Origin: Chitinophagaceae bacterium
Lineage (GTDB): Bacteria; Bacteroidota; Bacteroidia; Chitinophagales; Chitinophagaceae
Length of the DNA: 64,000 nt
Direction: 5' to 3'
NCBI GenBank assembly: GCA_019745155.1
Contig: JAIETM010000002.1
Span: 62,001 to 126,000, forward strand
Of the stretch, positions 1,589 through 21,601 are shown in pieces; position 1 is the stretch's first letter; each line of letters begins with the position of its first letter. The translations under genes were made by a program, and so were the position numbers. The notes beneath the pieces are model-generated. The model made no database searches. It saw nothing but the letters and a program-made list of their open reading frames with translations, and was not told where the DNA came from.

Positions 1589-1699
1589 GTTTTTTTTGCA
1601 AACATGCTTATTTGCGTAAGTTTTTACAACCGCATGAATATGTGAAAAGACGGTAATTGCTGCCTGTTTAAACCAGCTATTCAATACGTAAAAATCGAT

Positions 1700-2398: not shown

Positions 2399-2409
2399 AA
2401 TGAATTAGC

Positions 2410-3519: not shown

Positions 3520-3630
3520 GCCGTTAGTTTCTACAAAGTAACCCAGATTAAATTATGCCCGCAACCACACAATCATGTGGTTAAGCCTTTTGTATAAAAT
3601 ATTCTGTATTTTACTAGTAAACTATTGTGC

Positions 3631-5769
3631 ATGAGAAAATTGCCCTTATTGCTCTTGTCTTGTCTTCTTTTCATGCAGCTGCAAGCGCAGTATAGTTATC
3701 AAGCAAGCATTGGAAATGTGGAGGCCGAACAAAATGCCTTTCGAAAGTTTGTACTGGAATCATCCATCAATATTGATGTAAAGCCGGCCTTATTGCGTTT
3801 TTCACGATTAACCGTTGATAGCTTACAACGTGTTATCGCTAAAGACAGCATCAGTACAGATGCAACAAAGTCTATGGCTTCACAGAGTCTTGCTTTATTC
3901 CTGAAGCGTATCAGGGCCGATTTGAAAGCGAAACGCTATGAGGTATTTCTCTTACCAGATGCCATGAAGCAATTTCCACTAATCTGGCACAATCTCTTGC
4001 ACAATGGAAACTGGCAGCAGTATTTTACTGGCTTTGGTGTTCCAAGAACCGAGATAATGCTGTTGGCTTTCAGCGATTTCCCTCAATATCCCGCCATCAA
4101 GGAAATAGCGATGCTGAAAAAATTGCAACGCGATCCCGAGAAGATAGCCGACTATGCTATTGAGCATCGAAACTTTCCATACATCGACACACTGGCATTC
4201 ATGGTAGCTAATGAGCAACCAGAAATCATCTTACATCTTTTTGAACAATCGTCTAAGCAACAGGCGCAGCAATATCTACTGCAACATCAACATCCGCTGG
4301 TGCGCATGGTGGCTGAACTATCTACAAGCCCTAACAAGAAAAACTATTTGCCTTTTGCTTATAAAATATTGCGTGGAGAAATTACCAAGGAACGTATTGA
4401 TCAATTAAGGCAAACACCCTCAGCCTATTTTGCTGCACTAGTAGATGAAGTCTTGTATCTGCGCGGAGAAATGCTGGCAGGTAAAAAAGTGTATTACACA
4501 GGCGCGCTTCGTTACTATATTAGAAAATATGCAGTTGATTTCTATGTAAGTCAGATGAATCAATTGCACGAGCAATCTGATAAGCAGCGATTTTTTAGTC
4601 TGGAAGGATTGCGCCCGGAAGATTTGTATTTCATCATTGTTGGCGGTGATGCGGCTTTTTATACCTCTAGTTATTTGTATACCTACAATAAGCTCATGTC
4701 TTTTTATCAAAAGAAAAACGCACATGAGTTATTTGATCGTGTAAATAATGTGGTGTTCAGAAAATTTGTTCAAACAACAGTTTACTACAACAACTTCAGC
4801 ACACTATTGAGCAGTATGCCTACGGATAGTGCAAAAAATTTATTGAAACGATTTGTGACAGGTATTGAGCGAAGTACCGACTACACGCTCAATGAAGCGA
4901 TGGACGTAGCAGAAGCCATACCGGGTATTATGGCCAATCCTGTTTTGTCTGATGAGCTTAAAGTGCTGCTGCAAGTGAATAAAACTTACTGCCGTAGATC
5001 AGGTAATTATTATGGCACTTATGTATACGGACTTTTACAACAGATCTACAATACCGTGGCAGATGACAAAGCCGGAAAGCGCACACAGATACTCTTGCCT
5101 TATCTGAATTTAACACGGAAAGAAGTAGAGCAAAAAAACCAAGAGGTAGTGCAGCAGGTATTTTTCTATGGCGATGAAGATGGGAAAGCTTCATTCGACA
5201 ATTTCATGAGTGGCTTTAAAGATGCAAAGCAGTGGAAGCAGGAACAGAATGGTTTATGGGTTACACTACGTGCTTTGACTGGAGCACCGATGATGATTTA
5301 TGCCAACCTTCCTTTAAGCAATGATGAAGGAAAAGATTTGATGGCCATCGATTCTTTGAGTCGGTATTTAGATCAGCAAGGTGTACAGCCGCATATCCTT
5401 ATTCATCGTGGACATAGTTATCATGTAGAGCATACAATAGATAGAATTACTTCTGCAACACGATTGGCTATTTTGGGTTCTTGCGGTGGACATAAAAACT
5501 TGAGTGAAGTGATTTATCGAAGTCCCGATGCACAAGTCATCGCTACCAAGCAGATTGGTTCTAAGTTGGTGAATGAGCCTTTGTTACGAATGTTTAATGA
5601 TGCCATGCTTTTTGGAACAGGTGTACAATGGAAACCATTTTGGCAAAACCTCGGCAACAAATTGAATAAGGATGCGAAGGCCGCCGGTTATTTCAAGGAT
5701 TATATACCGCCCTATCAAAACATGGGTATGCTCTTGTTGCGTTTACATAAGTTGGATGAAACCTCTTAA
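3631..5769 (+). CDS. Secreted protein of unknown function with possible clan-CD-like His/Cys pair
   Basis: I use the ATG at 3631; an in-frame TTG lies two codons upstream at 3625. The product begins with a signal peptide (MRKLPLLLLSCLLFMQLQAQ) and has 712 residues. Most of it is helical and Tyr-rich and matches nothing I know. Near the C-terminus, after a hydrophobic strand, comes HILIHRGHSYH (His592, His595, His598) and then, after a second strand, AILGSCGGHKNL (Cys618). A His after a strand and a Cys after the next strand is the arrangement of clan CD cysteine peptidases and CHAT-type domains, so a peptidase-like domain at about residues 540-700 is plausible but unproven. The gene is monocistronic, with a terminator-like hairpin about 190 nt downstream. 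Confidence 0.85.
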   Translation: MRKLPLLLLSCLLFMQLQAQYSYQASIGNVEAEQNAFRKFVLESSINIDVKPALLRFSRLTVDSLQRVIAKDSISTDATKSMASQSLALFLKRIRADLKAKRYEVFLLPDAMKQFPLIWHNLLHNGNWQQYFTGFGVPRTEIMLLAFSDFPQYPAIKEIAMLKKLQRDPEKIADYAIEHRNFPYIDTLAFMVANEQPEIILHLFEQSSKQQAQQYLLQHQHPLVRMVAELSTSPNKKNYLPFAYKILRGEITKERIDQLRQTPSAYFAALVDEVLYLRGEMLAGKKVYYTGALRYYIRKYAVDFYVSQMNQLHEQSDKQRFFSLEGLRPEDLYFIIVGGDAAFYTSSYLYTYNKLMSFYQKKNAHELFDRVNNVVFRKFVQTTVYYNNFSTLLSSMPTDSAKNLLKRFVTGIERSTDYTLNEAMDVAEAIPGIMANPVLSDELKVLLQVNKTYCRRSGNYYGTYVYGLLQQIYNTVADDKAGKRTQILLPYLNLTRKEVEQKNQEVVQQVFFYGDEDGKASFDNFMSGFKDAKQWKQEQNGLWVTLRALTGAPMMIYANLPLSNDEGKDLMAIDSLSRYLDQQGVQPHILIHRGHSYHVEHTIDRITSATRLAILGSCGGHKNLSEVIYRSPDAQVIATKQIGSKLVNEPLLRMFNDAMLFGTGVQWKPFWQNLGNKLNKDAKAAGYFKDYIPPYQNMGMLLLRLHKLDETS

Positions 5770-7007: not shown

Positions 7008-8027
7008 ATGAGTAATGCAGAAAAATTAAAGGCCCTGAAACTGACGATTGATAAGATTGACAAGGATTTTGGTAAGGGTAGTGTGATGATGATGAGTGAT
7101 AAGGCCGAACATGCCATGGAAGTGGTATCAACAGGTTCTATTGGTTTAGACACTGCACTTGGTGTAGGTGGTTTTCCTAAGGGAAGAATCATCGAAATCT
7201 ATGGACCTGAATCTTCCGGTAAAACAACCATTGCGATTCATGCTATTGCAGAAGCGCAGAAAAAAGGTGGCATGTGTGCCATCATTGATGCGGAACATGC
7301 TTTTGATAGTGCTTACGCGCAGAAACTGGGCGTAGATGTAGATAACCTGCTGATCTCTCAACCAGATTATGGTGAGCAGGCTTTGGAAATTGCTGATCGT
7401 TTGATTCTTTCTGGTGCATTGGATGTAGTGGTGATTGACTCTGTTGCGGCATTGGTACCTAAAGGAGAACTGGAAGGTGAAATGGGCGATAGTAAAATGG
7501 GTTTACAGGCACGTTTGATGAGCCAGGCTTTGCGTAAACTGACTGCTACAATTAATAAGACCAATACAATTTGCATTTTCATCAACCAGTTGCGTGAGAA
7601 GATTGGTGTCATGTTTGGTAATCCTGAAACCACTACTGGTGGTAATGCGCTGAAGTTCTACGCGTCTGTACGTTTGGACATCAGAAGAATGAGCCAGATT
7701 AAAGATGGTGATACTGCAGTAGGTAACCGCGTTAAAGTAAAAGTGGTGAAAAACAAAGTAGCACCTCCTTTCCGTGCTGCTGAATTTGATATTGTATTTG
7801 GTGAAGGTATCAGCAAGGTTGGTGAGATCATTGATATGGGTGTTGAGCTGAGCATCATTCAAAAAAGTGGTAGCTGGTTTAGCTATGAAGGCAATAAACT
7901 AGGTCAGGGTCGCGAAGCGGTGAAGCAATTGTTGCACGATAATCCAGAATTATCAGGAGAGATCGAAGCAAAGATTCGCGCAGCAATCAGCACACAAACT
8001 GCACCCGCAGTTGCCGCAGAAGAATAA
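7008..8027 (+). CDS. recA: RecA recombinase
   Basis: This is a full-length 339-aa RecA, the ATP-dependent strand-exchange protein of homologous recombination. The Walker A loop GPESSGKT is at residues 66-73, the Walker B strand [12 protein letters not shown] follows near 142-153, and the loop-L2 segment with [27 protein letters not shown] is intact. The C-terminal tail is short and Ala-rich (TAPAVAAEE) rather than strongly acidic, as is common in Bacteroidota. The start [27 protein letters not shown] is typical and lies behind an A-rich leader. The gene stands alone with its own promoter region and a strong intrinsic terminator. Confidence 0.99.
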
Positions 8028-8218: not shown

Positions 8219-8226
8219 TATTTTTG
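8219..8226 (+). promoter_or_regulatory. Putative -7 promoter element of the first esterase-like gene
   Basis: TATTTTTG fits TAnnTTTG and ends 21 nt before the ATG at 8248. It overlaps the upstream in-frame TTG at 8224, which argues that translation starts at 8248 instead. No clear -33 element was seen. Confidence 0.35.
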
Positions 8227-8247
8227 CAATCACTTATTTCAGTAGGC

Positions 8248-9576
8248 ATGATGAAACAAATAGCTATTGTCTTGTTGTTTTGTGGAGCGTTGATGAATGC
8301 AATGGCGCAACCACCTGCTGGTCCGGGTACCAGAACAGGATTGGAATATGATATTCGACCGTTTAAGAAAAATGGTTTATTCCGCGAAGATGATAAAGTG
8401 GGTTATGATGTTCGTTTGAAAAACTCCACTTACACTAAGCAACGTGGCTCTATGCACATTGATGTGTTCGATGCCAAAGGTGCTTCTGTTTTTAATCAGA
8501 CTGTGAGTTTTTTCACCGACTCTAGGAAAACGTTTGCTACAGACCTGAACCTGGATTATGCAAAACTTACAGCAGGTTTTTATGATGTCAACATTATTGT
8601 AAGCACCACCAGTGCTGCAGATACGTTGCGTTATGTATTTGGATTAGACCCCGATAAGATTTTTACAGATATCAATAAGCCTGAAGATTTTGAAGAGTTC
8701 TGGTCTGAAGCCAGAAGAGAAATGCTGCGTAAAGAACCCCGCTTTCGTATCATTAGTCGCGGTAATTCCAGCACCAAGTATGTAAATGTATATCAGGTAG
8801 AGTTTCAGTCGGTAGATGATGTGGTGGTAAGAGGTTGGTTAACCATACCCAAGGGCGGAGCAAAATATCCGGTTATTTATCAGCTGCCCGATTATTATGA
8901 AGATCAGCGTCCAGACTCTAACAGAAGTGATATGGCTGTATTCCGCTTGAATGTGCGCGGCCATGGCAACAGTGCGGATAAAGTATTCTCAGATTATAGT
9001 ACACTGAATACCATGAATCTCTATGATAGAGATAAGTATATCTACAAGGGTATTTACATGGATTGCTTGCGTGGTCTTGACTTTATCTATAAATACGCCA
9101 ATCAATTAAACCTTGATGCAGACCGTGTAGTAGTCTATGGCGAAGGTCAGGGTGGTACGCTTGCGGGTGTTACCTGTGCTATGGATCAAAGACCGAAGTG
9201 TTGTATCATGGTTCGTCCCGTTTATGGTGATCTGCGTGGCTTGTTTGAAATGAATCAGGACAACCCCGTATTGCCTTGGCCGGTATCAGCTTTCAATGAT
9301 TATATCAACAGCGGTGAGGGCGGCATCAACAAACAGCGCTTTTATGAAAACTGGGATTTTTATGATCCTGTAAACTTCATGAGTAATATCAAGTGTAAAG
9401 TGTTGTTTGCTTTACCATTGATCAATAGTTCTGCACCTCCACAAACAGCTTTCTCTATTTATAATCAGCTCAAAGGCGATGTGAAAGAAATGTATGTGTG
9501 TTCAGGTAACACAATGGATTATGTTTATTACGCGTATCAAAACCTTTGGATCAAAAAAGTGCTGAGACTTCCTTAA
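8248..9576 (+). CDS. Secreted acetyl-xylan-esterase-like protein lacking the catalytic triad
   Basis: The start is taken at ATG 8248 (MMKQIAIVLLFCGALMNAMAQ, a signal peptide). The 442-aa protein has one N-terminal beta-sandwich-like repeat (about residues 30-135) and an alpha/beta-hydrolase domain of the AXE1/cephalosporin-C deacetylase type (about 145-442). It belongs with the genes at 13216 and 17188. In those two the nucleophile motif is GGSEG or GGSQG; here it is GEGQG, so Ser is replaced by Glu299. The acidic residue is replaced by Asn393 (LINSSAPP against LMDPYAPP) and the His by Met423. It is therefore probably a non-catalytic sugar-binding or scaffold relative. The reading frame is intact and the rest of the fold is well conserved, so this is not a decaying gene. 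Confidence 0.88.
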   Translation: MMKQIAIVLLFCGALMNAMAQPPAGPGTRTGLEYDIRPFKKNGLFREDDKVGYDVRLKNSTYTKQRGSMHIDVFDAKGASVFNQTVSFFTDSRKTFATDLNLDYAKLTAGFYDVNIIVSTTSAADTLRYVFGLDPDKIFTDINKPEDFEEFWSEARREMLRKEPRFRIISRGNSSTKYVNVYQVEFQSVDDVVVRGWLTIPKGGAKYPVIYQLPDYYEDQRPDSNRSDMAVFRLNVRGHGNSADKVFSDYSTLNTMNLYDRDKYIYKGIYMDCLRGLDFIYKYANQLNLDADRVVVYGEGQGGTLAGVTCAMDQRPKCCIMVRPVYGDLRGLFEMNQDNPVLPWPVSAFNDYINSGEGGINKQRFYENWDFYDPVNFMSNIKCKVLFALPLINSSAPPQTAFSIYNQLKGDVKEMYVCSGNTMDYVYYAYQNLWIKKVLRLP

Positions 9577-9653
9577 TTTGTTAGGAGATTGTTATCGCAG
9601 TATTTAATTGCTGTATTAGCATGAAATTTGCATAAACTGCTGCAAGCTCTCTC

Positions 9654-12600
9654 ATGTCTACAGGTAAACAAGTATTTCAAGCACATAACCCTACACGCTG
9701 GCAGCGCTTTAAGTGGGGTTCCCGCATTTTGGTGTTCATCCTGGTGATCATTGCTATTGCGATAGTGATTGCATTGCGTACCCTGTTTCAGCCAGACCTT
9801 CCAGTAGAAACAAGGGTGACCAAAAAACTGCTGTCAGAAGATGTACCGGTATATAAAGAAAGTGAGCTGATTGAAAAATACCGAGGCTTCAGAAAGTTCA
9901 TCGATGCAAAATATTTAAATAAGGACAGCGCGAAGCAAAATGCTGTAGTCAATAATAATAGTGCCTTATTTCCCGACAGCCTTGGGATTCGCGCAGCTTT
10001 TTATGTGGCTTGGGATGCGCAATCTTTTTTCTCCCTGCGTAGAAATATTGATAAGCTGAACCTGGTGATTCCAGAGTGGTTCTTCTTTGATCCAACTGCT
10101 GATACGTTGGTGGTAAGAATGGATAGACGAGGCAAGGAAATCATTGGTAACTCCAAAGTGAAAGTGATGCCCATGCTTACCAATAATGTGAACGGGGTAT
10201 TTCGTGGAGATATTTTGCACAGGGTGTTACATGATTCAGTGAAGAAAGAAAAGCTGATCAGCGCAATCATTAGAGAAGTAAGGAAAAACAAATTCATTGG
10301 TGTCAATATTGATTTTGAAGAAATGCAAGAAGACGATAATAGGATTCTTGTCAACTTTCAGAAAGAATTATATACCCGCATGAAGATGCAGGGCTTGATG
10401 GTTACACAAGATGTGGCGCCATTCAATGAAGACTATAACCACAAAGAATTATACAAGTACAACGATTACCTGATCTTGATGGCCTATGATCAGCACGCTG
10501 ATCATTCCAAGCCGGGGCCAGTGAGTAGTCAGAAATGGATAGAAGCAGCAGTTGATTATATCGCGAAAGAAATTCCCTCAGAGAAAATCATTCTTGCAAT
10601 GGCTTCTTATGGGTATGATTGGGGTGCAAACGGCAAGACAGAAACAGTTACATATCAGCAAGCGCTAACGCTGGCAAGAGAAAGTCAGGCCAAAGTCACT
10701 TATGACAACCATACCTATAACTTGTACTACACGTACAATGATGAAAATAACCAAACACATCAGGTACATTTTACAGATGCAGCTACCAATTTCAATACAC
10801 TTCGTTTTGCTACAGAATATGGATTAGCGGGAACCGCTATATGGCGTATGGGTAGTGAGGATAGCCGTATCTGGGATTTCTATAATCGATCTGTACACCG
10901 CGCTGCATTGAAGAATTTTGATTTTTCTGCACTCACTGTTGTGGAAAGTTCTGATGATGTAGACTATATCGGCGAAGGAGAGATTTTGGAAGTGTTGTCA
11001 AAACCAACCAAAGGGCATATCGAACATGAGATCGATAGTAATGAATTATTGATTAGTGAGCAACGATATGAAGTATTGCCTTCTATGTTCGTTGTGCGTA
11101 AATGGGGTAAGACTGAAGCCAAAAAACTTGTACTCACTTTTGATGATGGGCCCGATCCTTTGTACACCAAACAAATATTAGACACACTGGCTAAATACAA
11201 AGTGCCTGCTGTGTTTTTTGTGGTTGGCTTGGCAGCAGAAAACAATATTCCTCTAGTTAAGCGTATCTATCGAGAAGGGCATGAGATCGGCAATCATACA
11301 TTCACGCATACCAATATGGCTACAGCCAGTAGAAACAGAGCCATACTGGAAATGGACTTAACCCAACTACTGATAGAATGTATCACCGGCAGAAGCACGA
11401 CGATGTTTCGTGCACCATACAATGCGGATAGTCAGCCAGAGACCATGGAAGAATTGTTACCGGTGGCTATTAGTAAAGAGCGTGGTTATATTACCGTGAA
11501 TGAAAATATTGATCCGCTGGATTGGGAGAAAGAAGAGAACCCGTATTTAAATGGTGACTCCATCTTTCATCGTGTTGTGCGGCATGTGGATATGGGTAAT
11601 GTGATTTTGTTGCATGATGCAGGTGGCGATCGTTCTGCAACAGTTGAAGCAACGGGAAAAATCATCCGACATTTTCTAGCGCAAGGATATCAGTTCACGA
11701 CAATTGCAGATTTGCTTGGTAAATCGAGAGATGATATTATGCCGGAAGTGCCAAAAGGAAGAGGCTATGCATTACTGCAACTGAACCTATACATTTTTAC
11801 TATTCTGTATTATGTAGGACATTTTCTATTCTCTTTATTCCTACTCTTCTTAGTGCTGGGTACACTGCGTATTATTGCTTTGGCTGTATTGGCGTTGAAG
11901 CAGCGGAAAAGAGAAAAACAATTATCGGTAGATACGGTTCTACGAACAGATTATCCAAAAGTATCCATCATTGTACCTGCTTATAATGAAGAAGTAAATA
12001 TTGTAGGTACCATCATGAACCTACTGCAATGCGATTATCCCAACTTTGATGTGATTTTAGTGGATGATGGCAGTAAGGATGCAACCTTGCTTCGGGTAAG
12101 AGAAGTGTTTGAGCAATCTGCTCAGGTAAAAATCATTTCAAAAGTCAATGGTGGTAAAGCATCTGCATTGAATGAAGGTATTCGCCGCAGTGATGCGGAA
12201 TACTTGATATGCATTGATGCAGATACAAAGCTGAAACCAGATGCGGTGCGTATTATGATGGAGCATATGCTGCGTGATGCATCTGTTGGTGCTGTTGCAG
12301 GCACGGTGAAAGTAGGTAATCAGGTAAACCTGATGACGCGCTGGCAGCATTTGGAATATGTAACCAGTCAGAACTTCGATAGAAAAGCATTCGCTGTGAT
12401 CAATGCGATTACTGTGGTACCTGGCGCGATTGGTGCCTTTAGAAGAACAGCTATAGAAGAAGCCGGCTTATTTACTACAGATACTTTGGCAGAGGATTGT
12501 GATCTCACCATACGCATTCTGCGATGCGGGTATACGGTAGCCAATGAAAGCAGCGCTATTGCTTATACTGAAGCACCTGAAACTGTTGGACAGTTCATGC

Positions 12601-13052
12601 GGCAAAGAGTAAGATGGACTTTCGGCGTATTACAAACCATCTGGAAGCATAAGGATATTGCACTCGGCGGCAACAACAAGGCCTTAAGTTGGATTGCTAT
12701 TCCTGACATCATCATTTTCAAATATGTTATTCCGGCCTTCACGCCACTGGCAGATATCATTGCTTTAATCAGTCTCACTGCCGGTGTTTCTTCTACGGAT
12801 AACCAAATGCTCGATTATTACCTGCTCTTCCTGCTCGTAGATACAGGTATTGCACTTTTTGCCTTTTTATTGGAGGGCGAAAAGCTTTACCAGCTGGTTC
12901 TATTGATACCTCAACGCTTGATTTACAGGTGGTTAATGTTGGTAGTCCTGTTTCAATCTTTGCTGAGAGCGGTAAAAGGCGAACTGCAGCATTGGGGTGT
13001 TTTAAAGCGCACCGGCAATGTTAAAGACCTGCAAATCAATGTTTCAGAGTGA
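9654..13052 (+). CDS. GH18-like / CE4 deacetylase / GT2 glycosyltransferase fusion protein
   Basis: This 1132-aa membrane protein combines three activities. A membrane segment at residues 25-41 leads to an outside GH18-like domain (about 90-430) with the catalytic Glu222 in GVNIDFEE; the canonical first Asp of DxxDxDxE is not kept. Next is a NodB/CE4 polysaccharide deacetylase (about 485-690) with the metal and base residues in TFDDGPD (497-501) and HTFTH (548-552). Two membrane segments lead to a cytoplasmic family-2 processive glycosyltransferase (about 760-1010) with DAD (855-857), AEDCD (946-950) and QRVRW (984-988), then C-terminal membrane helices. The closest functional analogy is PgaB plus PgaC of poly-N-acetylglucosamine synthesis, or chitin/hyaluronan synthases. 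The polymer itself is inferred. It lies 77 nt after the first esterase-like gene. Confidence 0.93.
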   Translation: MSTGKQVFQAHNPTRWQRFKWGSRILVFILVIIAIAIVIALRTLFQPDLPVETRVTKKLLSEDVPVYKESELIEKYRGFRKFIDAKYLNKDSAKQNAVVNNNSALFPDSLGIRAAFYVAWDAQSFFSLRRNIDKLNLVIPEWFFFDPTADTLVVRMDRRGKEIIGNSKVKVMPMLTNNVNGVFRGDILHRVLHDSVKKEKLISAIIREVRKNKFIGVNIDFEEMQEDDNRILVNFQKELYTRMKMQGLMVTQDVAPFNEDYNHKELYKYNDYLILMAYDQHADHSKPGPVSSQKWIEAAVDYIAKEIPSEKIILAMASYGYDWGANGKTETVTYQQALTLARESQAKVTYDNHTYNLYYTYNDENNQTHQVHFTDAATNFNTLRFATEYGLAGTAIWRMGSEDSRIWDFYNRSVHRAALKNFDFSALTVVESSDDVDYIGEGEILEVLSKPTKGHIEHEIDSNELLISEQRYEVLPSMFVVRKWGKTEAKKLVLTFDDGPDPLYTKQILDTLAKYKVPAVFFVVGLAAENNIPLVKRIYREGHEIGNHTFTHTNMATASRNRAILEMDLTQLLIECITGRSTTMFRAPYNADSQPETMEELLPVAISKERGYITVNENIDPLDWEKEENPYLNGDSIFHRVVRHVDMGNVILLHDAGGDRSATVEATGKIIRHFLAQGYQFTTIADLLGKSRDDIMPEVPKGRGYALLQLNLYIFTILYYVGHFLFSLFLLFLVLGTLRIIALAVLALKQRKREKQLSVDTVLRTDYPKVSIIVPAYNEEVNIVGTIMNLLQCDYPNFDVILVDDGSKDATLLRVREVFEQSAQVKIISKVNGGKASALNEGIRRSDAEYLICIDADTKLKPDAVRIMMEHMLRDASVGAVAGTVKVGNQVNLMTRWQHLEYVTSQNFDRKAFAVINAITVVPGAIGAFRRTAIEEAGLFTTDTLAEDCDLTIRILRCGYTVANESSAIAYTEAPETVGQFMRQRVRWTFGVLQTIWKHKDIALGGNNKALSWIAIPDIIIFKYVIPAFTPLADIIALISLTAGVSSTDNQMLDYYLLFLLVDTGIALFAFLLEGEKLYQLVLLIPQRLIYRWLMLVVLFQSLLRAVKGELQHWGVLKRTGNVKDLQINVSE

Positions 13053-13215
13053 TTTTTAAGCTTTTTATTATCCCGCTTGCTTGGCTACCCCTGCCTCAGC
13101 CTTTATCTTGCAGTACCGATAGTTGTCTTTGGTCCATAACTAGTAAGTGTTGAACTAAAACCGGCAACCGAATCCCTCCTATGATCTGAATCGTGTAGAC
13201 GTTTGTCCGCAAGTT

Positions 13216-15024
13216 ATGATCAAGCAAAGCAAAAAAAGATATCTCCAGATAAGCTTGGCAACCTTTGTTGCCTTTCTCTTACCGCTATTTGTATTAGCGC
13301 AAGCTGATATCATTTTAACCCTCGATCCCATTACAAAAGCTGGATTTTTCAGCACAAAAAGTCCGGTCAAGTTTCGTTTACTCGTATCCAATAAAAGCAA
13401 GACCGATCTTAAAGGCACTGTTTCTTATACAGTAACCACAGTAAAGTCTGTTTATATCACCGATGCTTCAATGCCTGCTGCCGTAGGTGCAGGAAAAAAT
13501 TTAGATATCCCTGTTGATTTACCCATGATTGATGGAGAAGGTTTTTATGAAATCATCATTCGTGCAGAAATGGGTGATGTGGTTGAATCTATCTCTAAGC
13601 AGTTTGGGTATACCGATTTGAATAAGGTAAAGAAAAAAGCACCCGAGCCAGCACCGGTTACCGATATCAACTTTCCTCAGGCTGGTGTGAAGTCGGTCTC
13701 GAACGAAGATTATAGTCACGATGAAGGCCATGGTGAAGAAGGTGCTGAAGAAGATGAGGGTGAAATTGTTACTGTGCTAAAGCCTGCCGCAAAGGATGCC
13801 ATGTTTGGTATGTATAAGCCGGTGAAGTATACCGTAGTCTTACACAATAAGTATAAAGTAAAGCAAGAGGGATCGTTCAGTTATTATGTAACTACTGAAA
13901 CGGGTGAGCCTGTGTATGAGAATAAAGTGCCTGTTGTGATTCCTAAAAAGTATAGTAAGCAGTTCAGCTTTGATGTGCCAACGTTGAAGGGATCTGGTGT
14001 ATATAATTTCAAGTTCTGTTTGAATCTAAGTACTTACGATGACACAACCCGTCATGCATTTGTTTTTAATGCAGATAAGGTTAATACAGAGTTGCATAAG
14101 CCAGATGATTTTGATGATTTCTGGGATCAAACGATTAAAGAGTTAGATAAGATTGATCCACGCTATTCAATTGTCTATGATCCTTCAAAAAGTAATGTAT
14201 CGCATAGAGCCTATCGTGTAGATTTTACTTCATGGGGAAACGTTCGCGTATATGGATGGTTAACCATTCCCAAACTGAAAGGAAAGTTTCCGTTGGTGCT
14301 GGGCTTTGGTGGACATAAGATCGAAGTCTTTCCGCTCTACTTCCCAGATTTTGCTGTGTTTACTATGAACGTGCGTGGTATTGGCGAAAGCATGAAAGTG
14401 ATCAACCCGAAGAACGAAACCTTTGTGTCTTTGCACCTGAATGATCGGGATAAATATGTGTATCGTGGAATGTATATGGATTGCTTAAGGGCTGCAGACT
14501 TCTTATTCAAAGGCCCGCATGGTTTCAACTTTGATCTTAGTCGTGTCATGGTTTTTGGCGGTAGCGAAGGGGCTTCAAAATCATTGGTGACAATTGCTTT
14601 AGGCAGAAAAAGAGGATACCGCTTTGGGGCTTGTGTAGCAAATAATCCGGTATTAACAGATATTCATCAAATGTATGATGTGGCTGAGGTAAATGAGGAG
14701 ATCAAGTTTCCTATCAGCGATTTCAATAATTACATCGAAGGAACAAAGGGCATGACAAAGCAGGCTGTTTTAGATGTGTGGAAGTATTATGAGGTACAGA
14801 ACTTTATGTCTGAAATCAACTGTCCAGTTTTATTCGCATGTAGTTTGATGGATCCTTATGCGCCACCGGGCAGTGTCTTGAGTGCATACAATAAGATGCC
14901 AAAAGAGACAAAAGCCAAATCTGAGTTGTACATTTTTGCCGACCTTGGCCACGAGGTAACGCCAAGGCATAATGTATTTACCGGCTCCTGGTATTATGAA
15001 AAGCTAGCGAGCGTAATGAAGTAA
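13216..15024 (+). CDS. Secreted acetyl-xylan-esterase-like protein, triad intact
   Basis: The 602-aa product starts with a signal peptide ending in LFVLAQA. Two N-terminal beta-sandwich-like repeats (about residues 33-135 and 185-290) share the pattern of a strand, then K(x)PVK(Y/F), then a VTT strand, and are joined by an acidic linker rich in Glu and Asp (about 165-185). The C-terminal alpha/beta-hydrolase domain is of the AXE1 type with a full triad: Ser450 in GGSEGA, Asp546 in LMDPYAPP and His579 in DLGHEV. Such enzymes remove acetyl groups from sugars. The next gene, coding for a barrel-like protein, begins at the base after its stop, so the two are translationally linked. The substrate is unknown; the polymer made by the neighbouring synthase is a good candidate. 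Confidence 0.9.
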   Translation: MIKQSKKRYLQISLATFVAFLLPLFVLAQADIILTLDPITKAGFFSTKSPVKFRLLVSNKSKTDLKGTVSYTVTTVKSVYITDASMPAAVGAGKNLDIPVDLPMIDGEGFYEIIIRAEMGDVVESISKQFGYTDLNKVKKKAPEPAPVTDINFPQAGVKSVSNEDYSHDEGHGEEGAEEDEGEIVTVLKPAAKDAMFGMYKPVKYTVVLHNKYKVKQEGSFSYYVTTETGEPVYENKVPVVIPKKYSKQFSFDVPTLKGSGVYNFKFCLNLSTYDDTTRHAFVFNADKVNTELHKPDDFDDFWDQTIKELDKIDPRYSIVYDPSKSNVSHRAYRVDFTSWGNVRVYGWLTIPKLKGKFPLVLGFGGHKIEVFPLYFPDFAVFTMNVRGIGESMKVINPKNETFVSLHLNDRDKYVYRGMYMDCLRAADFLFKGPHGFNFDLSRVMVFGGSEGASKSLVTIALGRKRGYRFGACVANNPVLTDIHQMYDVAEVNEEIKFPISDFNNYIEGTKGMTKQAVLDVWKYYEVQNFMSEINCPVLFACSLMDPYAPPGSVLSAYNKMPKETKAKSELYIFADLGHEVTPRHNVFTGSWYYEKLASVMK

Positions 15025-15855
15025 ATGATCATGATAACAAAGCGCGTTATACTTACTTTTTTTATAGCATCCCTTGTACTAAATGCCAGAGCTGACTTTC
15101 CATTTGGTAAAGGAAGAAGAATCTTATTTCCATCTTTCGCATTTAGCAGCGCACAGCGAAACTATGATCGAAATGGAAGCACTGTTTCGATGGGTCAGGG
15201 TGGCGGTTTTTCTTCAACATCTTTCGCGCTCTTTTTTGGATATGGCATTAGTAGAAATCTAGACTTTTCAGCAAATATTCCATTCGCTAATCAGGTATTA
15301 AAAAACTCAGCGGCTAAATTGACGAATGCTGGATTTGGAGATGCTCACTTTAGCCTGGCCTATCATATTCCATCTGAGGACTTGAAAAACTTTTTAACGC
15401 TCAAAGCAGGAGTATATGTGCCTATGTATGCAGGTGCAGTAACACCAAGTCTTGGTTATGGAAATAATGGACTGAGCCTTGGGGCGAATTATTCTTTTAG
15501 TCCTTATAAGGATGGCTTTTGTATTGCAGACCTTACCCATATCAGGTACTTTGCCGATGATGGCTCTGGTCCAAATGTTACCTCATATGGCATAACATTC
15601 GGAAAATCGTTTAATGTATTCCATTTATTTACTGTTGGATTGACGCATACTAAATCAACTAGTGTCAATAAGAACTTTTCATTTGATTTACCTCAAAACA
15701 GAGACTTTTCAACAGGAAGGTTAACACTCGGTTATGGAAGAAGAGCAAACAGAATGATGATGCCCTTTTTCCAAGTGTACTATACGCCTTATGGCAGAAA
15801 TGCAGGCGTGAGCTATGGAGCAAGCTTGTCTATTATTTCCAAGCTGCCACTTTAG
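15025..15855 (+). CDS. Putative outer-membrane beta-barrel protein (family copy 1)
   Basis: The 276-aa protein has a signal peptide (ending NARA, before DFPFGKGRR) and an alternating hydrophobic/polar strand pattern ending in an aromatic-containing strand, which fits an outer-membrane barrel of about 12 strands. It shares with the genes at 18921 and 19811 the opening (F/W)P(F/V)GKGR or FPIGKNR, a central GFGDAHFSLAYHIPS-type segment, and a late NRDF or NKDF motif. The fold resembles the barrel family related to MetA-pathway phenol-degradation proteins. It starts immediately after the esterase at 13216; a second ATG lies at 15031. A role in passage or anchoring of the locus polymer is inference from context. 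Confidence 0.82.
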   Translation: MIMITKRVILTFFIASLVLNARADFPFGKGRRILFPSFAFSSAQRNYDRNGSTVSMGQGGGFSSTSFALFFGYGISRNLDFSANIPFANQVLKNSAAKLTNAGFGDAHFSLAYHIPSEDLKNFLTLKAGVYVPMYAGAVTPSLGYGNNGLSLGANYSFSPYKDGFCIADLTHIRYFADDGSGPNVTSYGITFGKSFNVFHLFTVGLTHTKSTSVNKNFSFDLPQNRDFSTGRLTLGYGRRANRMMMPFFQVYYTPYGRNAGVSYGASLSIISKLPL

Positions 15856-15983
15856 GGCGGCATAATAGGCAGCAGGTATAATTTTTTGGTCAAAATTTCG
15901 TTAAGGAACAGTATCTATTGCCGGAAATCGTCTTATGGAAGCGGGGATTCCACAATGGGTTCACTAATATTACAGACCGAACT

Positions 15984-17183
15984 ATGAAAGCAAACGCATA
16001 CATCCCTGCGCTTACCGGGGTAAGAGCCATTGCGGCGTTTTTGGTGTTTTTTCACCATGCCAATCAGGCTGAATTCCCCTTTCCTTTGTTTCGTGTATTG
16101 AATGAATTCCATATCGGGGTAACAGTGTTTTTTGTATTGAGTGGTTTTTTGATCTGCCTTCGATATTATGATACTTGTGAAATCACCGGTACCTGGTTCC
16201 GTAAATATTTGAAGAACAGGATTGCCCGCATCTATCCCATGTATATGGTGCTTACACTTGGCACATTTGCATACGCATGGTATACCAAAGATGAAAGTAT
16301 CTATAATGGCTTTACATGGCATTGGGGTGTATTGCTGATGAATATCTTTTTCTTCCGAGGCTTTTTTGACGACCTCAAGTTTACAGGTGTAGCACAGGGT
16401 TGGTCGCTTACCGTTGAAGAATGCTTCTACTTTTCTGCACCTTTCTTCTTTCGCCAGATTAAGAAAGATAAACGTGCCATGATCTATCTACCATTATTGG
16501 TTCTGGGTATTGGCATTTTGCTGGTAGCTATCTTCAGCAATTTTAACTGGTGGGGTTTCTATGGGAATTATCGTTTCAATTTTCTATACACATTCACGGG
16601 GCGTTGTACAGAGTTTTTTATTGGTATGTATCTGGCATTGTACATGTTGAAGCAAAAGGATGCGCCTAAGTATCAATTTCCTTGGGTAACACTACTGGGA
16701 TTTGTGGTCATTTGCGGCGCCATGGCTATCATGACTTCTATCCCCTTAACAGAATCCATGCCTTTTGGTCTCTATCATCCTTGGGGTATATTCTCTAATA
16801 ATGTCTTGTTGCCCATTGGTGTATGTCTGTTTTTTTACGGAGCAATTATGGAGAGATCGATCATCCGCTGGTTTTTATCTACCAAGCTGATGGATTTACT
16901 CGGTAAAAGTTCATACATCTATTATCTGGTACATATCGGATTTATTGCAACCATTTCGCATCATTATAGTGAAATCTGGACAGATGCTTTCTATGCCTGG
17001 TTAGATGCAAATGAATTTTACTGGTTATCAGCAAATATTCCCTATGCAGTTGTAAGTATTGGTATCGTGTTCATCCTATTGAATATTGTTTCTATCATCC
17101 TCTATAAGTTAATAGAAGAACCGATGAATCACTATATCAGAAAGTCATCTTTGCTAGAGAAAAAAGTAAAACCTGCGGTATAA
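15984..17183 (+). CDS. Acyltransferase family 3 membrane protein
   Basis: I start at ATG 15984 (MKANAYIPALTGVRAIAAFLVFFHH), where the family's typical first helix begins; an in-frame TTG at 15918 would add 22 unlikely residues. The 399-aa protein has about ten membrane segments and AT3 motifs: Arg14, the first-helix His24/His25 pair, FVLSGFLICLRYY near residue 52, and the basic FRKYLKNRIARIYPMYM segment. AT3 proteins add acyl groups to cell-surface or exported sugars. Lying between two esterase/barrel pairs and 4 nt before the third esterase gene, it could acylate the same glycan the esterases deacylate. Confidence 0.9.
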   Translation: MKANAYIPALTGVRAIAAFLVFFHHANQAEFPFPLFRVLNEFHIGVTVFFVLSGFLICLRYYDTCEITGTWFRKYLKNRIARIYPMYMVLTLGTFAYAWYTKDESIYNGFTWHWGVLLMNIFFFRGFFDDLKFTGVAQGWSLTVEECFYFSAPFFFRQIKKDKRAMIYLPLLVLGIGILLVAIFSNFNWWGFYGNYRFNFLYTFTGRCTEFFIGMYLALYMLKQKDAPKYQFPWVTLLGFVVICGAMAIMTSIPLTESMPFGLYHPWGIFSNNVLLPIGVCLFFYGAIMERSIIRWFLSTKLMDLLGKSSYIYYLVHIGFIATISHHYSEIWTDAFYAWLDANEFYWLSANIPYAVVSIGIVFILLNIVSIILYKLIEEPMNHYIRKSSLLEKKVKPAV

Positions 17184-17187
17184 ACTG

Positions 17188-18921
17188 ATGCGTTATCTGA
17201 GATCCATATTATCCTTGATTGTATTACTGGTTACACAGATAAGTCTGAATGCGCAACAGCCAGTTCAGGTAACCATAACACCTGCTGCAAAAGACGGAGT
17301 ATTCTCTTATAAACTACCAGTACAGTTTACGATTAAGATTGAGAATGCTGGTAAAACACCACAGTCGGGTAATATCAATTATGTGCTGACGACTACTTCT
17401 GGTGCTTATGTATTAGAAGGTAATCTTGATCTGAATATCAAACCAGGTGCGGCTGCCGTTCAGGCAATACGACCCTCGGTAGAAACCACCGGAAGTTATG
17501 AACTAACCATTCGTGTTAACCTCACAGACTTTAATGAAGCTTTTGTACAACCATTCACTTATGAGAGTAAGCAAATAAAGGAAGAGAAAAAAAAGGAGGA
17601 AGAACAGAAAAAAGTAGAAGAAGCATTAGAAGATGAGAATGGAGAAATTGTTACCACTTTAAGACCCTTATCTAAGAATGCATTGTTCTCTTCTAAAAAT
17701 CCGGTACGCTACAATGTTGTCTTACACAATAAGTATAATGTAAAACAGGAAGGCAAAATCAATTATCAGATTACTACTGAAACAGGTGAATGGGTTTGTG
17801 AGTACAACCTGCCGGTTAGTTTGCCGAAAAAAACCATTCGTCAATACAATTTCGATATCCCTGATATCAAAAAAGCTGGTATCTATAAAGTATCACTTAG
17901 ACTGAATTTATCTTACTATGATGATACTACCCAGCATGCATTTATCTATGAATTAGATCAGGTGCAATCAGAAGAAAACAAGCCAGAAGATTTTGATGAT
18001 TTTTGGGACAGAACCATCAAGGAGTTGGAGTTGATTGATCCGGAATATGAAGTAATACCGGCTGCGGATAAAGATATCTCTACGCATCATGTGTATCGCG
18101 TAGAATTTATGTCGCTCGATAAAGTGAAAGTGTATGGCTGGTTATCGGTGCCTAAATTAAGAGGCCGCTATCCGGTGCTAGTCGCTTTTGGTGGTTATCG
18201 AAAACTATTGGATCCAATTTACTTCCCCGACTTTGCCGTGTTGTCTATGTTGCCCAGAGGTGTAGGCGATTATGAGAAAAAAGTAAACCCTACCAATCAG
18301 GAGTTGATTACGCTGGGTATCGAGGATAAAGAGAAATTTATTTACAGAGGTATTTATATGGACTGCCTACGTGCAGTTGATTTTTTCTTTTCCAATTCGC
18401 ACTTGTTCAAGTTTGATTTAAGCAGGGTAGGTGTTTTTGGTGGTAGTCAGGGCGGCTCTTTGGCGCTTGTGGTTTCTTCGCTGATCAAACGTACCGGCAA
18501 ACGTGTGAATACTTGTATGGCAGATACGCCTGTTTTCTGTGATTTTGATGTAAACCTGGCCATCGCAGAAAAAGCGAAAGAGATGCCACCCTTCCCTATT
18601 GGTTATATCGTGAAGTACATGAACGAAACCAAGACAGCCAGCAAGGAGAAAATTCTCAATAACCTAAAGTATTTCGCAATTAAAAACTTTGTGCCCGATA
18701 TTGATTGCTCTGTCTTGTATGCCGCAACTTTATTGGACGATCTGGCGCCACCCGGTTGCACCATACCAACCTATAATCGTTTGAATGAAAAAGTGCGTAA
18801 GGGCAGCGAATTATATGTGTTTCATGATCTTGGTCACGAAGTACCCGAGAGCTATAATAATTTCAAGAGCACCTGGTTTTTTGAAAAGCTGGCCAGGAGT
18901 ATCAGACAACCCGGAAACTAA
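17188..18921 (+). CDS. Secreted acetyl-xylan-esterase-like protein, triad intact
   Basis: This 577-aa protein is the third paralog of the set. After a signal peptide (ending LNAQ) it has two beta-sandwich-like repeats (about residues 27-130 and 153-262) separated by a charged Lys/Glu-rich linker likely to be helical (about 130-152). The AXE1-type alpha/beta-hydrolase domain has Ser420 (GGSQGG), Asp517 (LLDDLAPP) and His550 (DLGHEV). It should be an active carbohydrate esterase in the periplasm or at the outer membrane. Its stop overlaps the start of the next barrel-like gene (TAATG), repeating the esterase-plus-barrel arrangement of 13216/15025, which suggests duplication of a two-gene unit. 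Confidence 0.9.
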   Translation: MRYLRSILSLIVLLVTQISLNAQQPVQVTITPAAKDGVFSYKLPVQFTIKIENAGKTPQSGNINYVLTTTSGAYVLEGNLDLNIKPGAAAVQAIRPSVETTGSYELTIRVNLTDFNEAFVQPFTYESKQIKEEKKKEEEQKKVEEALEDENGEIVTTLRPLSKNALFSSKNPVRYNVVLHNKYNVKQEGKINYQITTETGEWVCEYNLPVSLPKKTIRQYNFDIPDIKKAGIYKVSLRLNLSYYDDTTQHAFIYELDQVQSEENKPEDFDDFWDRTIKELELIDPEYEVIPAADKDISTHHVYRVEFMSLDKVKVYGWLSVPKLRGRYPVLVAFGGYRKLLDPIYFPDFAVLSMLPRGVGDYEKKVNPTNQELITLGIEDKEKFIYRGIYMDCLRAVDFFFSNSHLFKFDLSRVGVFGGSQGGSLALVVSSLIKRTGKRVNTCMADTPVFCDFDVNLAIAEKAKEMPPFPIGYIVKYMNETKTASKEKILNNLKYFAIKNFVPDIDCSVLYAATLLDDLAPPGCTIPTYNRLNEKVRKGSELYVFHDLGHEVPESYNNFKSTWFFEKLARSIRQPGN

Positions 18922-19739
18922 TGATGAAAATTCGATTATTGATATTAGCCATTTGCTGCAGCTTGGTTGCCCGTGCTGATTGGCCTGTTGGTAAAGGACG
19001 TTTTGTGGTTTTACCCGGCTTCAATTATTTCTCTACTGCGGGTTTTTTCAACAAGAATGGTACGAGGGTTCCTCAAGGCAAAGACAATTCTTTTTCATCC
19101 TACTATTTTGGTGTTGGTATTACACATGGCTTAGCGCGTAACTTGGACATCTTTACCAATGTTCCATATATACAGCAGAATCAAGTTGCATTCGGTACAA
19201 AAACAACAAGAGCCGGTCTTGGTGATGTGGCACTTGGTCTTGCGTTTCATATTCCTTCAGAATCTAAGCGTACACACTTTACTACAAGGATAGCTGCATT
19301 AATACCTACCTATACCAATACTACTACGCCTTTTCTGGGTTTTGGTGCCAACGGTATGCAAGTGGTAGCCAACTATTCATTCAATCCCGGTAACCAGCAG
19401 TTTACCATTTTTGAAGTAACACATAACCGCTTCTTTGCTGAAGATGGAACAGGCCCTAATCAATTTAGTGGTGCTGTTACTTGGGGTGTTAATTTCAACG
19501 ATTATTATATGGCCACAGCCAATTTTACCCATATGCAGTCTGCGAGTGCCGATAAAACATTCAGCACTAATCTTCCAGAAAACAAAGACTTTTCTTATGG
19601 TAAAGTTACCGTGGGCATCGGCAGAAAAATCAGCAGAACAGTTACACCATACCTGCAGGGCTTTTACACGGTGTATGGTAAAAACTCAGGAGTAGGCTGG
19701 GGTTTGGGCTTATCGCTCATCACCAAAATGCCTTTCTAA
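18921..19739 (+). CDS. Putative outer-membrane beta-barrel protein (family copy 2)
   Basis: The 272-aa product has a signal peptide (ending VARA) and mature start DWPVGKGRFVVLPGF. It parallels the protein at 15025 along its whole length: RNLDIFTNVPY, GLGDVALGLAFHIPS, TPFLGFGANGMQVVANYSF, EDGTGPNQFSG and LPENKDFSYGK all have counterparts there. The strand-rich pattern and the SLITKMPF C-terminus, ending in Phe, support an outer-membrane barrel. It starts inside the TAA stop of the esterase gene, so translation is coupled. The barrel and esterase may function together at the outer membrane. Confidence 0.82.
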   Translation: MMKIRLLILAICCSLVARADWPVGKGRFVVLPGFNYFSTAGFFNKNGTRVPQGKDNSFSSYYFGVGITHGLARNLDIFTNVPYIQQNQVAFGTKTTRAGLGDVALGLAFHIPSESKRTHFTTRIAALIPTYTNTTTPFLGFGANGMQVVANYSFNPGNQQFTIFEVTHNRFFAEDGTGPNQFSGAVTWGVNFNDYYMATANFTHMQSASADKTFSTNLPENKDFSYGKVTVGIGRKISRTVTPYLQGFYTVYGKNSGVGWGLGLSLITKMPF

Positions 19740-19810
19740 GTTCTGAACGTAATTTTTTGCCGGAAAAAGCGTTATAGACTTGATTTCGGGATTCACCAAT
19801 CTATCCGTAC

Positions 19811-20653
19811 ATGCAAGCATTTACCAAATCGGTTCTCTTTATATGCCTCATACTAATGGCAAATACCAGCTTTGCTGGTTTCCCCATTGGTAAAAATCGT
19901 TGGCTCTTAGCGCCATCTTATAACCTATACAATGCAAAAGGTTATTGGAACAAGGGTCGCGAATATTCAGGTTATAGCAATAGCGGCAAGTTTACCTCAC
20001 ACTATTTTGGTTTCTATGGAGGTACTGGTATTTCCGATAAAGCGGATCTGGTATTCAACCTGCCTTTTGTGATTTCCAGCTATCAGGAAACTGGTTTAAC
20101 ACAAACCAACTCTAGTCTGGGTGATGCCAGTGTTGGTATTTCTTACTTACTCAATGATTTTGATTACTACAAGTTTCTTAGTGTAACAGGATCACTTATC
20201 ATACCATTATACAATAATAGCGCAGGCAAACTGCCTACCATTGGATATGCCAAACCGGGCGCAGAAGTGAAATTGGGTTTCTCCGGTACCAATAGAACCC
20301 GGTTGAAGAATACTTACTGGGATGTATCAGCCGGTATTCGTCAGTTTTTTGATTCAGTTGGTCCAACGCAATTGTTCTTTGATGCCCTATTCGGCATGCC
20401 GCTCGACGAAAGTTGGAAGCTTACGGTTACACTCAGCAGCAATAGCTCAACCAGCCGTAATCGCGACTTCGACCCTAATAACCCCTTCATCAACCGTTAC
20501 TACTCAACATTCCGCATCACCCCTGCATTGTCTAGAAAAATCAGCGAAACCACCTCGATTAATTTCAGTGTATTTGCAGATCTTTCCGGTAAGAACATCG
20601 GTCGCGGTACTGGTGCTGCCCTCACGGGTATCATCAAATTTGGAACGCGGTAG
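19811..20653 (+). CDS. Putative outer-membrane beta-barrel protein (family copy 3)
   Basis: The 280-aa protein has a signal peptide (ending SFAG) followed by FPIGKNRWLLAPSY, the same opening as the barrels at 15025 and 18921, plus SSLGDASVGISYLL and GNN-type turns in matching places. It is the most divergent copy and is not paired with an esterase: it lies 71 nt after copy 2. Its strand pattern again suggests an outer-membrane barrel of about 12 strands. The function is unknown; the three copies within 6 kb suggest a specialised role in this locus. Confidence 0.8.
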   Translation: MQAFTKSVLFICLILMANTSFAGFPIGKNRWLLAPSYNLYNAKGYWNKGREYSGYSNSGKFTSHYFGFYGGTGISDKADLVFNLPFVISSYQETGLTQTNSSLGDASVGISYLLNDFDYYKFLSVTGSLIIPLYNNSAGKLPTIGYAKPGAEVKLGFSGTNRTRLKNTYWDVSAGIRQFFDSVGPTQLFFDALFGMPLDESWKLTVTLSSNSSTSRNRDFDPNNPFINRYYSTFRITPALSRKISETTSINFSVFADLSGKNIGRGTGAALTGIIKFGTR

Positions 20654-20674
20654 ATGCTTCTATAATCCTGAAGC

Positions 20675-21601
20675 TTGCTGTATCGACTCATAAAACCCTT
20701 AGTGCAATTCTGTCTGAGTATCTTTTTTTCAGATATCCGTATTTCGGGTAAAACAGTCTTGCGCAAATTGAAAGGGCCATTGATGATTGTGGCCAATCAC
20801 CCAGATTCTTTTTTAGATGGCATTTCTATCGCTACGCAATGCGACTCGCCTGCTTATTTTCTTGCCCGCGGGGATGTTTTTCGCAAAAGACCTTTTTATA
20901 AGCAACTGCTTTCAAGTTTACATGTGATTCCTGTACATCGTCTTAGTGAAGGCAAAGATCATTTACATGAGAACGAAGAAACTTTCAACGCCTGTAAAGC
21001 CATTCTACGTAATAATGGTATTGTGATCATTTTCATAGAAGGTATTTGCGTACTGAGCCACGAACTACAGCCTTTCAAAAAAGGTACAGCAAGAATTGTA
21101 CAAGGCAGCTGGGACGAAGGCGTGCCCACCAAGGTATTGCCAGTGGGCTTGTATTATGAAACCCTGCATGGCGTGGGCAAATCCTTACAAATCATCACAG
21201 GTCCCATTTTGAGTAGAGAAGATTTTCGGGCAGAAACCTTGTTGCCCCGACAGCTTAAAGCGTTCAATGACCTCATGTATGCACAGATTGATCAGTTAAT
21301 CAACAGTCGCGAAGAAGTAAGCACACATCATCATCCACTATTACTGAATATCACCCGACTACTGCACGCGCCACTCTATTATCCAATCAGCAGCTTTATC
21401 AATAAGAAAACACGGGGCACTGTATTTTATGATTCAGTATTGTTTGGCGCCTTGGTACTATTGTATCCAATCTATTTATTGATTGTGTTGATTATGCTTT
21501 TGTGGCTGCACTTGCCTTTACTCTGGTCCGTGGTTATTGTTGGTGTATTTCCACTCACTGCATATTTTTCTAGAAAAGCAGTGTATGGCAGCAAGCCATA
21601 A
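20675..21601 (+). CDS. PlsC-type 1-acyl-glycerol-phosphate acyltransferase family protein
   Basis: The 308-aa product has the acyltransferase block I in NHPDSFLDG (residues 41-49, an H-x5-D spacing common in Bacteroidota members), a basic block around ARGDVFRKRPFYKQLL, and block III as FIEGICV. Two strongly hydrophobic segments lie near the C-terminus (about 245-295). The start is a TTG at 20675: an in-frame stop at 20660-20662 rules out any longer form, and the next ATG would remove the N-terminal helix. Members acylate lysophosphatidic acid or related lipids at the inner membrane. It ends the barrel-containing gene run, so acylation of a lipid partner of the locus is possible but unproven. 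Confidence 0.87.
   Translation: MLYRLIKPLVQFCLSIFFSDIRISGKTVLRKLKGPLMIVANHPDSFLDGISIATQCDSPAYFLARGDVFRKRPFYKQLLSSLHVIPVHRLSEGKDHLHENEETFNACKAILRNNGIVIIFIEGICVLSHELQPFKKGTARIVQGSWDEGVPTKVLPVGLYYETLHGVGKSLQIITGPILSREDFRAETLLPRQLKAFNDLMYAQIDQLINSREEVSTHHHPLLLNITRLLHAPLYYPISSFINKKTRGTVFYDSVLFGALVLLYPIYLLIVLIMLLWLHLPLLWSVVIVGVFPLTAYFSRKAVYGSKP

Follow-up and report, generated by a model that had tools for sequence, protein, structure and literature searches.

Esterase-barrel gene pairs in a Chitinophagaceae genome and their phylogenetic coupling to a BcsB-type synthase

In a 64,000-nucleotide stretch of the genome of a Chitinophagaceae bacterium (GenBank assembly GCA_019745155.1, contig JAIETM010000002.1, forward-strand positions 62,001 to 126,000; hereafter the window), nine genes downstream of recA encode three AXE1-family proteins, three barrel proteins, a GH18-CE4-GT2 fusion, an AT3 membrane acyltransferase and a PlsC-type acyltransferase (Table 1). 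The question raised by this locus is whether these genes form one pathway that makes, acylates and exports a single polysaccharide, as proposed in a first-pass annotation in which the fusion carried the activities of PgaB and PgaC and the barrels could replace PgaA. Our analysis points elsewhere. The locus is probably best read as a set of esterase-barrel cassettes, accompanied by the AT3 and PlsC genes, that would tune acylation and form the outer arm of an exopolysaccharide system of BcsAB type whose synthase is encoded in trans. Beside them lies the gene of a separate synthase, the fusion.

The esterase-barrel pair and its proposed partner synthase

The search with a barrel profile covered 394 genomes of the family and 395 of the phylum, and 49 more loci were then read. 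A match was called strong at E<1e-40 (full-length members score at least 153 bits), partial weak matches (E 7e-12 to 1e-5) were not counted as members of the barrel family, and pieces in two fragmented genomes fell in between (102 bits in G097 and 48 bits in G177). Strong barrels were found in 35 of the 394 family genomes, and weak matches only in 69 more. Among the 60 barrels scoring at least 60 bits (two below this value, in L165 and L166, were omitted), 51 are directly adjoined by an AXE1 (CE7) gene, which lies upstream in 50, with gaps of -106 to 46 bp, and downstream in one; the esterase-barrel pair is a module of its own. No AXE1 adjoins the remaining nine: barrel 3 in the window, its counterpart in the sister species G002, those of L163 and L164, which are the ones within BcsB operons, a piece in L168, and those of L127, L132, L137 and L139. 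Conservation of the neighbourhood had been suggested as a check on the first-pass proposal, and its outcome is divided: the pair is conserved, but the full gene order of the window recurs, among the loci read, in G002 alone. In G001, also of the same genus, the order is recA, a dead AXE1, a barrel, a GNAT gene and an amidase gene, with the AXE1 protein 44% identical to AXE1a and the barrel 47% identical to barrel 3, and AXE1-barrel pairs sit between recA and the amidase gene in several other genera too. On the simplest reading of these gene orders, the extra genes of the window came to separate AXE1a from its own barrel 3.

In two genomes of distant families, G772 and G631, a relative of the barrel is physically linked to a synthase, being encoded between BcsB and an MshEN-bearing GT2 in the order histidine kinase, BcsB, barrel, GT2 and a homologue of u524. 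The source genome has a similar operon, with no barrel, on another contig (C14; L172:4435-12454), where a divergent GH5 cellulase gene is followed by genes for a histidine kinase, a BcsB-like subunit (E 8e-24), a processive-type GT2 with a QRSRW motif, and u524, a protein of 524 amino acids with many hydrophobic segments and no Pfam match. By sequence, the nearest solved relative of this GT2 is BcsA (5ej1, E 2e-8), and its N-terminal domain is MshEN (Pfam E 1.4e-9), a candidate for the binding of cyclic di-GMP. Because the operon is found in G772, G631 and the source genome, co-occurrence was tested in the 394 family genomes, using a threshold of E<=1e-120 for the BcsB-linked GT2. This GT2 was found in 32 genomes, namely 32 of the 35 with a strong barrel versus none of the other 359, and a hand count places it and the strong barrels in the same 10 of the 101 genera of the family. 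Within genus g109, three genomes (G111, G370 and G413) have both barrel and GT2, and at least five (G187, G238, G283, G345 and G392) are in neither list. One of the strong-barrel exceptions, G069, does have BcsB, on a contig that ends just past it. Outside the family, all other strong-barrel genomes from the phylum search (five of family f22, G772 and G631) carry the GT2, which was found in eight of 277 phylum genomes, all eight with a barrel match; two of these matches are weak (G485, E 2e-8; G588, E 1e-9), yet they lie beside BcsB/GT2. With these in-operon and adjacent relatives, the exopolysaccharide link assumed in the first-pass annotation is supported.

The fusion was matched (E<=1e-150) in 156 of the 394 family genomes, with 32 of the 35 strong-barrel genomes set against 124 of the other 359, and is therefore commoner where a strong barrel is present without depending on one. 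The esterase-barrel module tracks the BcsB/GT2 synthase more closely than the fusion. In the sampled relatives the pairs are almost confined to genomes that encode, at another place, a cellulose-synthase-like machine, which suggests that they are the missing outer arm of that machine.

Two esterase lines and one barrel fold

The locus had been credited with three AXE1-like esterases, and all three proteins do match AXE1. AXE1b and AXE1c, in which an alignment finds the Ser-His-Asp triad, are likely esterases, but AXE1a has lost the triad wholly, with GEGQG in place of GxSxG and Gly, Asn and Asn aligned to Ser, Asp and His, and is therefore a pseudo-esterase that has the CE7 fold. An AlphaFold2 model of AXE1a (pLDDT 92) combines an N-terminal beta sandwich with the CE7 fold, its nearest solved structures being acetyl xylan esterases, and the AXE1 profile, when compared with solved structures, matches CE7 (1l7a, E 1e-50). 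The N-terminal region of AXE1b is longer and, judging from the alignment, may hold two beta domains.

Among 54 AXE1 proteins longer than 300 amino acids (a 140-amino-acid piece in L124 was excluded), the triad is kept in 27 and all three residues are lost in the other 27, with no intermediates. In a quick tree computed without the catalytic columns, the 27 dead proteins, AXE1a among them, form one side of a branch with a support of 99, and the barrels with a dead partner, including barrel 3 of the window, form one side of the barrel tree with a support of 83 (three pieces of the 60, one from L167 and two from L168, were left out of that tree). To estimate selection, the nine window genes and recA were compared with their G002 counterparts; three further dead pairs were also examined, but one had no usable dS. 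For all nine genes dN/dS lies between 0.015 and 0.092 (AXE1a 0.015, fusion 0.029, barrels 0.016-0.067, PlsC 0.092), with dS at 0.9-1.9 and so near saturation; these ratios reflect purifying selection and not chance, and the two further dead pairs likewise stay below 0.1 (0.095 and 0.064). An AT3 gene (a relative of the window AT3 at E<1e-6, at most 200 bp upstream) lies directly upstream of 13 of the 27 active esterases versus none of the 27 dead ones, with two of the active esterases at a contig end (Fisher p 3.6e-5, ignoring ancestry). This association fits the tuning of acylation by esterases and acyltransferases that the first-pass annotation had envisaged.

That the three barrels belong to one family was confirmed, as a search with barrel 2 recovers the other two (E 5e-70 and 4e-24). 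None of them has a Pfam match at E<=0.1, and hence none to the COG4313/Phenol_MetA_deg profile; NCBIfam gave weak matches only (OmpO porin, E 0.0036; FilC, E 0.18), and the barrel profile found nothing at E<=1 among the sequences of solved structures. The AlphaFold2 model of barrel 2, from a 57-sequence alignment, is a beta barrel (pLDDT 89, pTM 0.82) of 12 long strands, counted as DSSP elements, with no tetratricopeptide repeat (TPR). The nearest solved fold is that of 4rl8, a COG4313 channel from Pseudomonas putida (VIA Z 26.1, root-mean-square deviation 2.2 over 245 residues), followed by the amyloid secretion channel FapF (5o65; VIA Z 24.8, root-mean-square deviation 2.1 over 235 residues), and further neighbours in Foldseek or VIA are autotransporter barrels, KdgM (VIA Z 19-20) and NanC (VIA Z 18). 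For COG4313 channels, uptake of hydrophobic molecules has been proposed (PMC4493636), and with such proposed uptake channels among its neighbours the fold leaves direction and cargo unsettled. PgaA, BcsC and AlgE were all absent from the best 50 matches listed by Foldseek or VIA, which proves nothing alone. A PgaA-like barrel is rejected on the 12 predicted strands and the absence of TPR in the model.

In four species of genus g138, a TPR-only protein of 672-720 amino acids is encoded directly 3' of the barrel (L159:9037-11061, L160:5880-7898, L161:5776-7797 and L162:8532-10694). These proteins have apparent signal peptides, judged by eye, and Pfam was run on those of L160 and L162 only; together with the barrel they are possibly a split form of TPR-plus-barrel exporters.

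The favoured reading, its difficulties and its rivals

In the scheme that we favour, in which the direction of export, the polymer, the acyl group on it and what the dead esterases do are all inferred, polymerization would fall to the contig C14 operon beside the GH5 cellulase, whose MshEN/GT2-BcsB complex would, judging from the protein families, extrude a beta-glycan into the periplasm. The AT3 protein would add O-acyl groups and the active CE7 esterases would remove them, and the dead esterase clade, able only to bind, would guide or gate the chain. The window barrels would be the exit pore of this Bcs-like system, as suggested by the linkage in the distant genomes, and the presence of a secretion channel, FapF, among the nearest solved folds fits export. 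The fusion alone would make a second polymer, PNAG-like (poly-N-acetylglucosamine) or chitosan-like. A bolder version, which we put forward only tentatively, is that the in-operon TPR-plus-16-strand exporter is replaced by exchangeable cassettes, each pairing a CE7-fold protein with a 12-stranded barrel, which lie away from the synthase genes and have multiplied in some genomes, with the ancient dead CE7 lineage as guide or gate and the active copies often accompanied by an acyltransferase, and that the cassette expressed would vary the acylation of one polymer. If true, an export and acylation cassette acting in trans would locate the outer arm of the BcsB/GT2 operons that have no adjacent family barrel, 11 of the 15 that were read. 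It would also offer a natural experiment on pseudo-esterases that are coupled to a pore, with 27 dead and 27 active members, all the dead ones going back to a single branch. In the titles and abstract openings covered by a literature search we found no account of the esterase-barrel pair, of a Bacteroidota BcsB-MshEN system or of the trimodular fusion.

Several observations weigh against this scheme. Two of the three strong-barrel exceptions, G145, which is unexplained, and G177, which is 72% complete, yielded neither BcsB nor GT2, no GT2 match was obtained in G478, which has a weak barrel match (E 2e-13), and G062 and G152 have barrels with no AXE1 beside them. In the 15 synthase-operon loci read (L163, L164, L166, L172-L174 and L192-L200), nine, including that of the source genome, have a GH5 homologue next to the operon, but AXE1 was seen in none, and only four (L163, L164, L166 and L192) have a barrel within or next to the operon, so that in AXE1-bearing genomes the coupling rests on co-occurrence. 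Co-occurrence is itself inflated by shared ancestry, and the barrel, fusion and GT2 draws, of 394 genomes each, were taken to be the same genomes from their number and handles. The contrast in AT3 between active and dead esterases is, in effect, one of a single clade with the rest. Weak barrel matches only were present in 29 phylum genomes, and apart from G485 and G588, where they are beside BcsB/GT2, the other 27 are unexplained. COG4313 channels, the closest fold, are proposed importers of hydrophobic molecules (PMC4493636), and the fusion, too, is found together with strong barrels, at a distance of less than 10 kb in nine of the 37 genomes that have both.

This last point is the strength of the rival that corresponds to the first-pass proposal: a single system with the fusion as polymerase of a hexosamine polymer, the barrels in the place of PgaA, and acylation of the polymer tuned by the esterases and AT3. 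The fusion is a protein with a hydrophobic anchor, GH18 and CE4 domains that would be periplasmic, and a processive-type GT2 with hydrophobic segments. A motif check that had preselected fusions on CE4 motif 1 was repeated on all 22 aligned fusions, where CE4 motifs 1-5 (DDGPD, the two His of motif 2, FR(A/P)P, DP.DW and LLHD) and the GT2 motifs DAD, ED and QRxRW are kept in 22 of 22 and DDG in 21, while at the catalytic position of GH18 20 have Glu and two Asp; the window fusion is intact throughout. The claim that it combines the activities of PgaB and PgaC is partly supported, by the intact motifs of its PgaB-like CE4 and PgaC-like GT2 domains, but its hydrolase is GH18, and the best NCBIfam match of its GT2, TIGR03937 (PgaC_IcaA), reaches 205.6 bits, below the cut-off of 422.3. 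A contig search with the fusion gave one named full-length relative, in a Sphingobacteriia metagenome-assembled genome (RDYY01000016.1), and one partial match.

In favour of a single system, the fusion accompanies the strong barrel in the 32 family genomes counted above and in all five f22 genomes, it sits inside the cassette locus in both the window and G002, and the nine genomes with fusion and barrel within 10 kb span four genera and two families; of the other 28 genomes with both, five have them on the same contig, 23-496 kb apart, and 23 on other contigs. Because of this co-occurrence and proximity, the fusion may belong to the same system as the cassettes. However, 124 family genomes have the fusion and no strong barrel, and cassettes occur with no full-length fusion match in G001, G370 and G267. 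The pattern is repeated within g109, where G238, G283, G345 and G392 have the fusion but neither strong barrel nor BcsB-type GT2, and G370 has barrel and GT2 but no fusion. Neither AXE1 nor a barrel was beside the fusion in the first 12 other loci read that hold it at full length, and ten flanking genes there were three carB-like, two dnaX-like, two sulfatase, one secDF, one histidine kinase and one S9 peptidase gene; in five cassette-free genomes the fusion adjoins carB, dnaX or secDF. With the GT2 tracking the barrel more closely, the fusion is rejected as its sole partner and the claim that the barrels replace PgaA for the fusion is not supported, and we consider the one-system explanation unlikely. 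The fusion is most likely a hexosamine-polymer synthase that works alone and has its own deacetylase and hydrolase domains. In three loci its neighbour is a protein of the sulfatase family (PF00884), about 660-810 amino acids long (L048:11420-13855, L049:5924-7897 and L144:11828-14248).

Less probable still is that the pair has nothing to do with export and serves to take up and deacylate acetylated oligosaccharides, the barrel being a porin like KdgM or NanC and its partner a CE7 acetyl xylan esterase. The CE7 nature of the esterase domain and the 12-stranded KdgM and NanC porins among the structural neighbours of the barrel would suit it, but half of the esterases (27 of 54) are dead, the BcsB/GT2 synthase is absent from all 359 family genomes with no strong barrel, barrel relatives lie within the BcsB-GT2 operons of G772 and G631, and SusC/SusD were not found in the 20 open reading frames (ORFs) of the window that were scanned, between 554 and 25620. 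A role of the cassettes in handling a lipid or other hydrophobic envelope compound (AT3, PlsC and a COG4313-like channel), with the BcsB/GT2 co-occurrence due to lineage history only, is very improbable: the proposal for the COG4313 channel, its best fold match (PMC4493636), and the PlsC gene near the barrel in several loci favour it, but the co-occurrence spans 10 genera when counted by hand, reaches into one genus of another family and, with the genes physically linked, into two distant families; within g109, three genomes have both, and in at least five neither turned up.

Gene content of the locus and known systems

The gene list of the first-pass annotation was correct: the nine genes are ORFs on the plus strand, in the order of Table 1, with strong Pfam matches except for the barrels. 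In keeping with that annotation, no match to SusC/SusD or Wzx/Wzy was found in the 20 ORFs scanned. Downstream of PlsC are genes for a GNAT acetyltransferase and then an amidase, and a PlsC gene is also near the barrel in L124, L125, L130 and L132. A second AT3 acyltransferase is encoded upstream of recA on the minus strand (2410-3519), and beside it, in window positions 1001-5769, are two ORFs and one of 714 amino acids, none with a Pfam match. A DUF559 domain lies inside an adenine-deaminase-like ORF at L134:160-2307, and was not found in the relative in L152.

Table 1. Features of the locus, in window coordinates
Feature	Position	Strand	Description	Pfam match
recA	7008..8027	+		
AXE1a	8224..9576	+	Ig-like domain and CE7 alpha/beta-hydrolase domain; pseudo-esterase	AXE1, E 6e-34
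AXE1a start	likely near 8248-8251	+	apparent signal peptide (by eye)	
GH18-CE4-GT2 fusion	9654..13052	+		GH18, E 2e-20; CE4, E 2e-31; GT2, E 3e-30
AXE1b	13216..15024	+	CE7 esterase domain, triad intact	AXE1, E 9e-37
Barrel 1	15025..15855	+	directly downstream of AXE1b, its partner; assigned to the family by sequence	
AT3 membrane acyltransferase	15918..17183 (likely start 15984)	+		Acyl_transf_3, E 1.7e-24
AXE1c	17188..18921	+	likely CE7 esterase, Ser/Asp/His triad intact	AXE1, E 6e-48
Barrel 2	18921..19739	+	partner of AXE1c; predicted 12-stranded outer-membrane barrel	
Barrel 3	19811..20653	+	probable ancestral partner of dead AXE1a, other genes now between	
PlsC-type acyltransferase	20675..21601	+		PF01553, E 8e-16

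In spite of clear likenesses, the components described here differ from the known systems that they resemble. The AXE1 proteins share the fold of the CE7 acetyl xylan esterases and cephalosporin C deacetylases, and half of them the triad, but have an apparent signal peptide (by eye) and an N-terminal Ig-like domain, are dead in the other half, and are paired with a barrel. The predicted 12-stranded barrel superposes over most of its length on the COG4313 channels and FapF, but barrel 2 is only 11-13% identical to them, has no Pfam match, and is paired with a CE7 protein. With the PgaABCD and IcaADBC systems for PNAG the locus has in common the joining of CE4 and a PgaC-like GT2, in the fusion, and an AT3-type protein, as is IcaC. 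The hydrolase of PgaB is of family GH153, unlike the GH18 of the fusion, the GT2 is under the PgaC_IcaA cut-off, and PgaA consists of a TPR domain and a 16-stranded barrel, which the barrel predicted here does not resemble.

The Bcs systems, including those for acetylated cellulose (Wss), are alike in the BcsB-like subunit, the QRSRW GT2 nearest to BcsA, the GH5 cellulase-type gene beside the operon and the presence of acylation genes. The Bcs synthase carries PilZ, however, where the GT2 described here has MshEN, and acetylation in Wss is carried out by WssF-I, in place of which AT3 and CE7 proteins are found here; no BcsC-like gene was recognised beside the operon, the barrel has 12 predicted strands and no TPR, and the genes for barrel and esterases are not with those of the synthase. 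NfrB of E. coli likewise combines a GT2 with MshEN, and it makes a secreted polysaccharide under cyclic di-GMP control (PMC8669469). The NfrBA-YbcH system shares with ours this combination and an outer-membrane partner (PMC8669469), but MshEN is C-terminal in NfrB and N-terminal here, NfrA is a TPR barrel, and it is the system described here that has BcsB.

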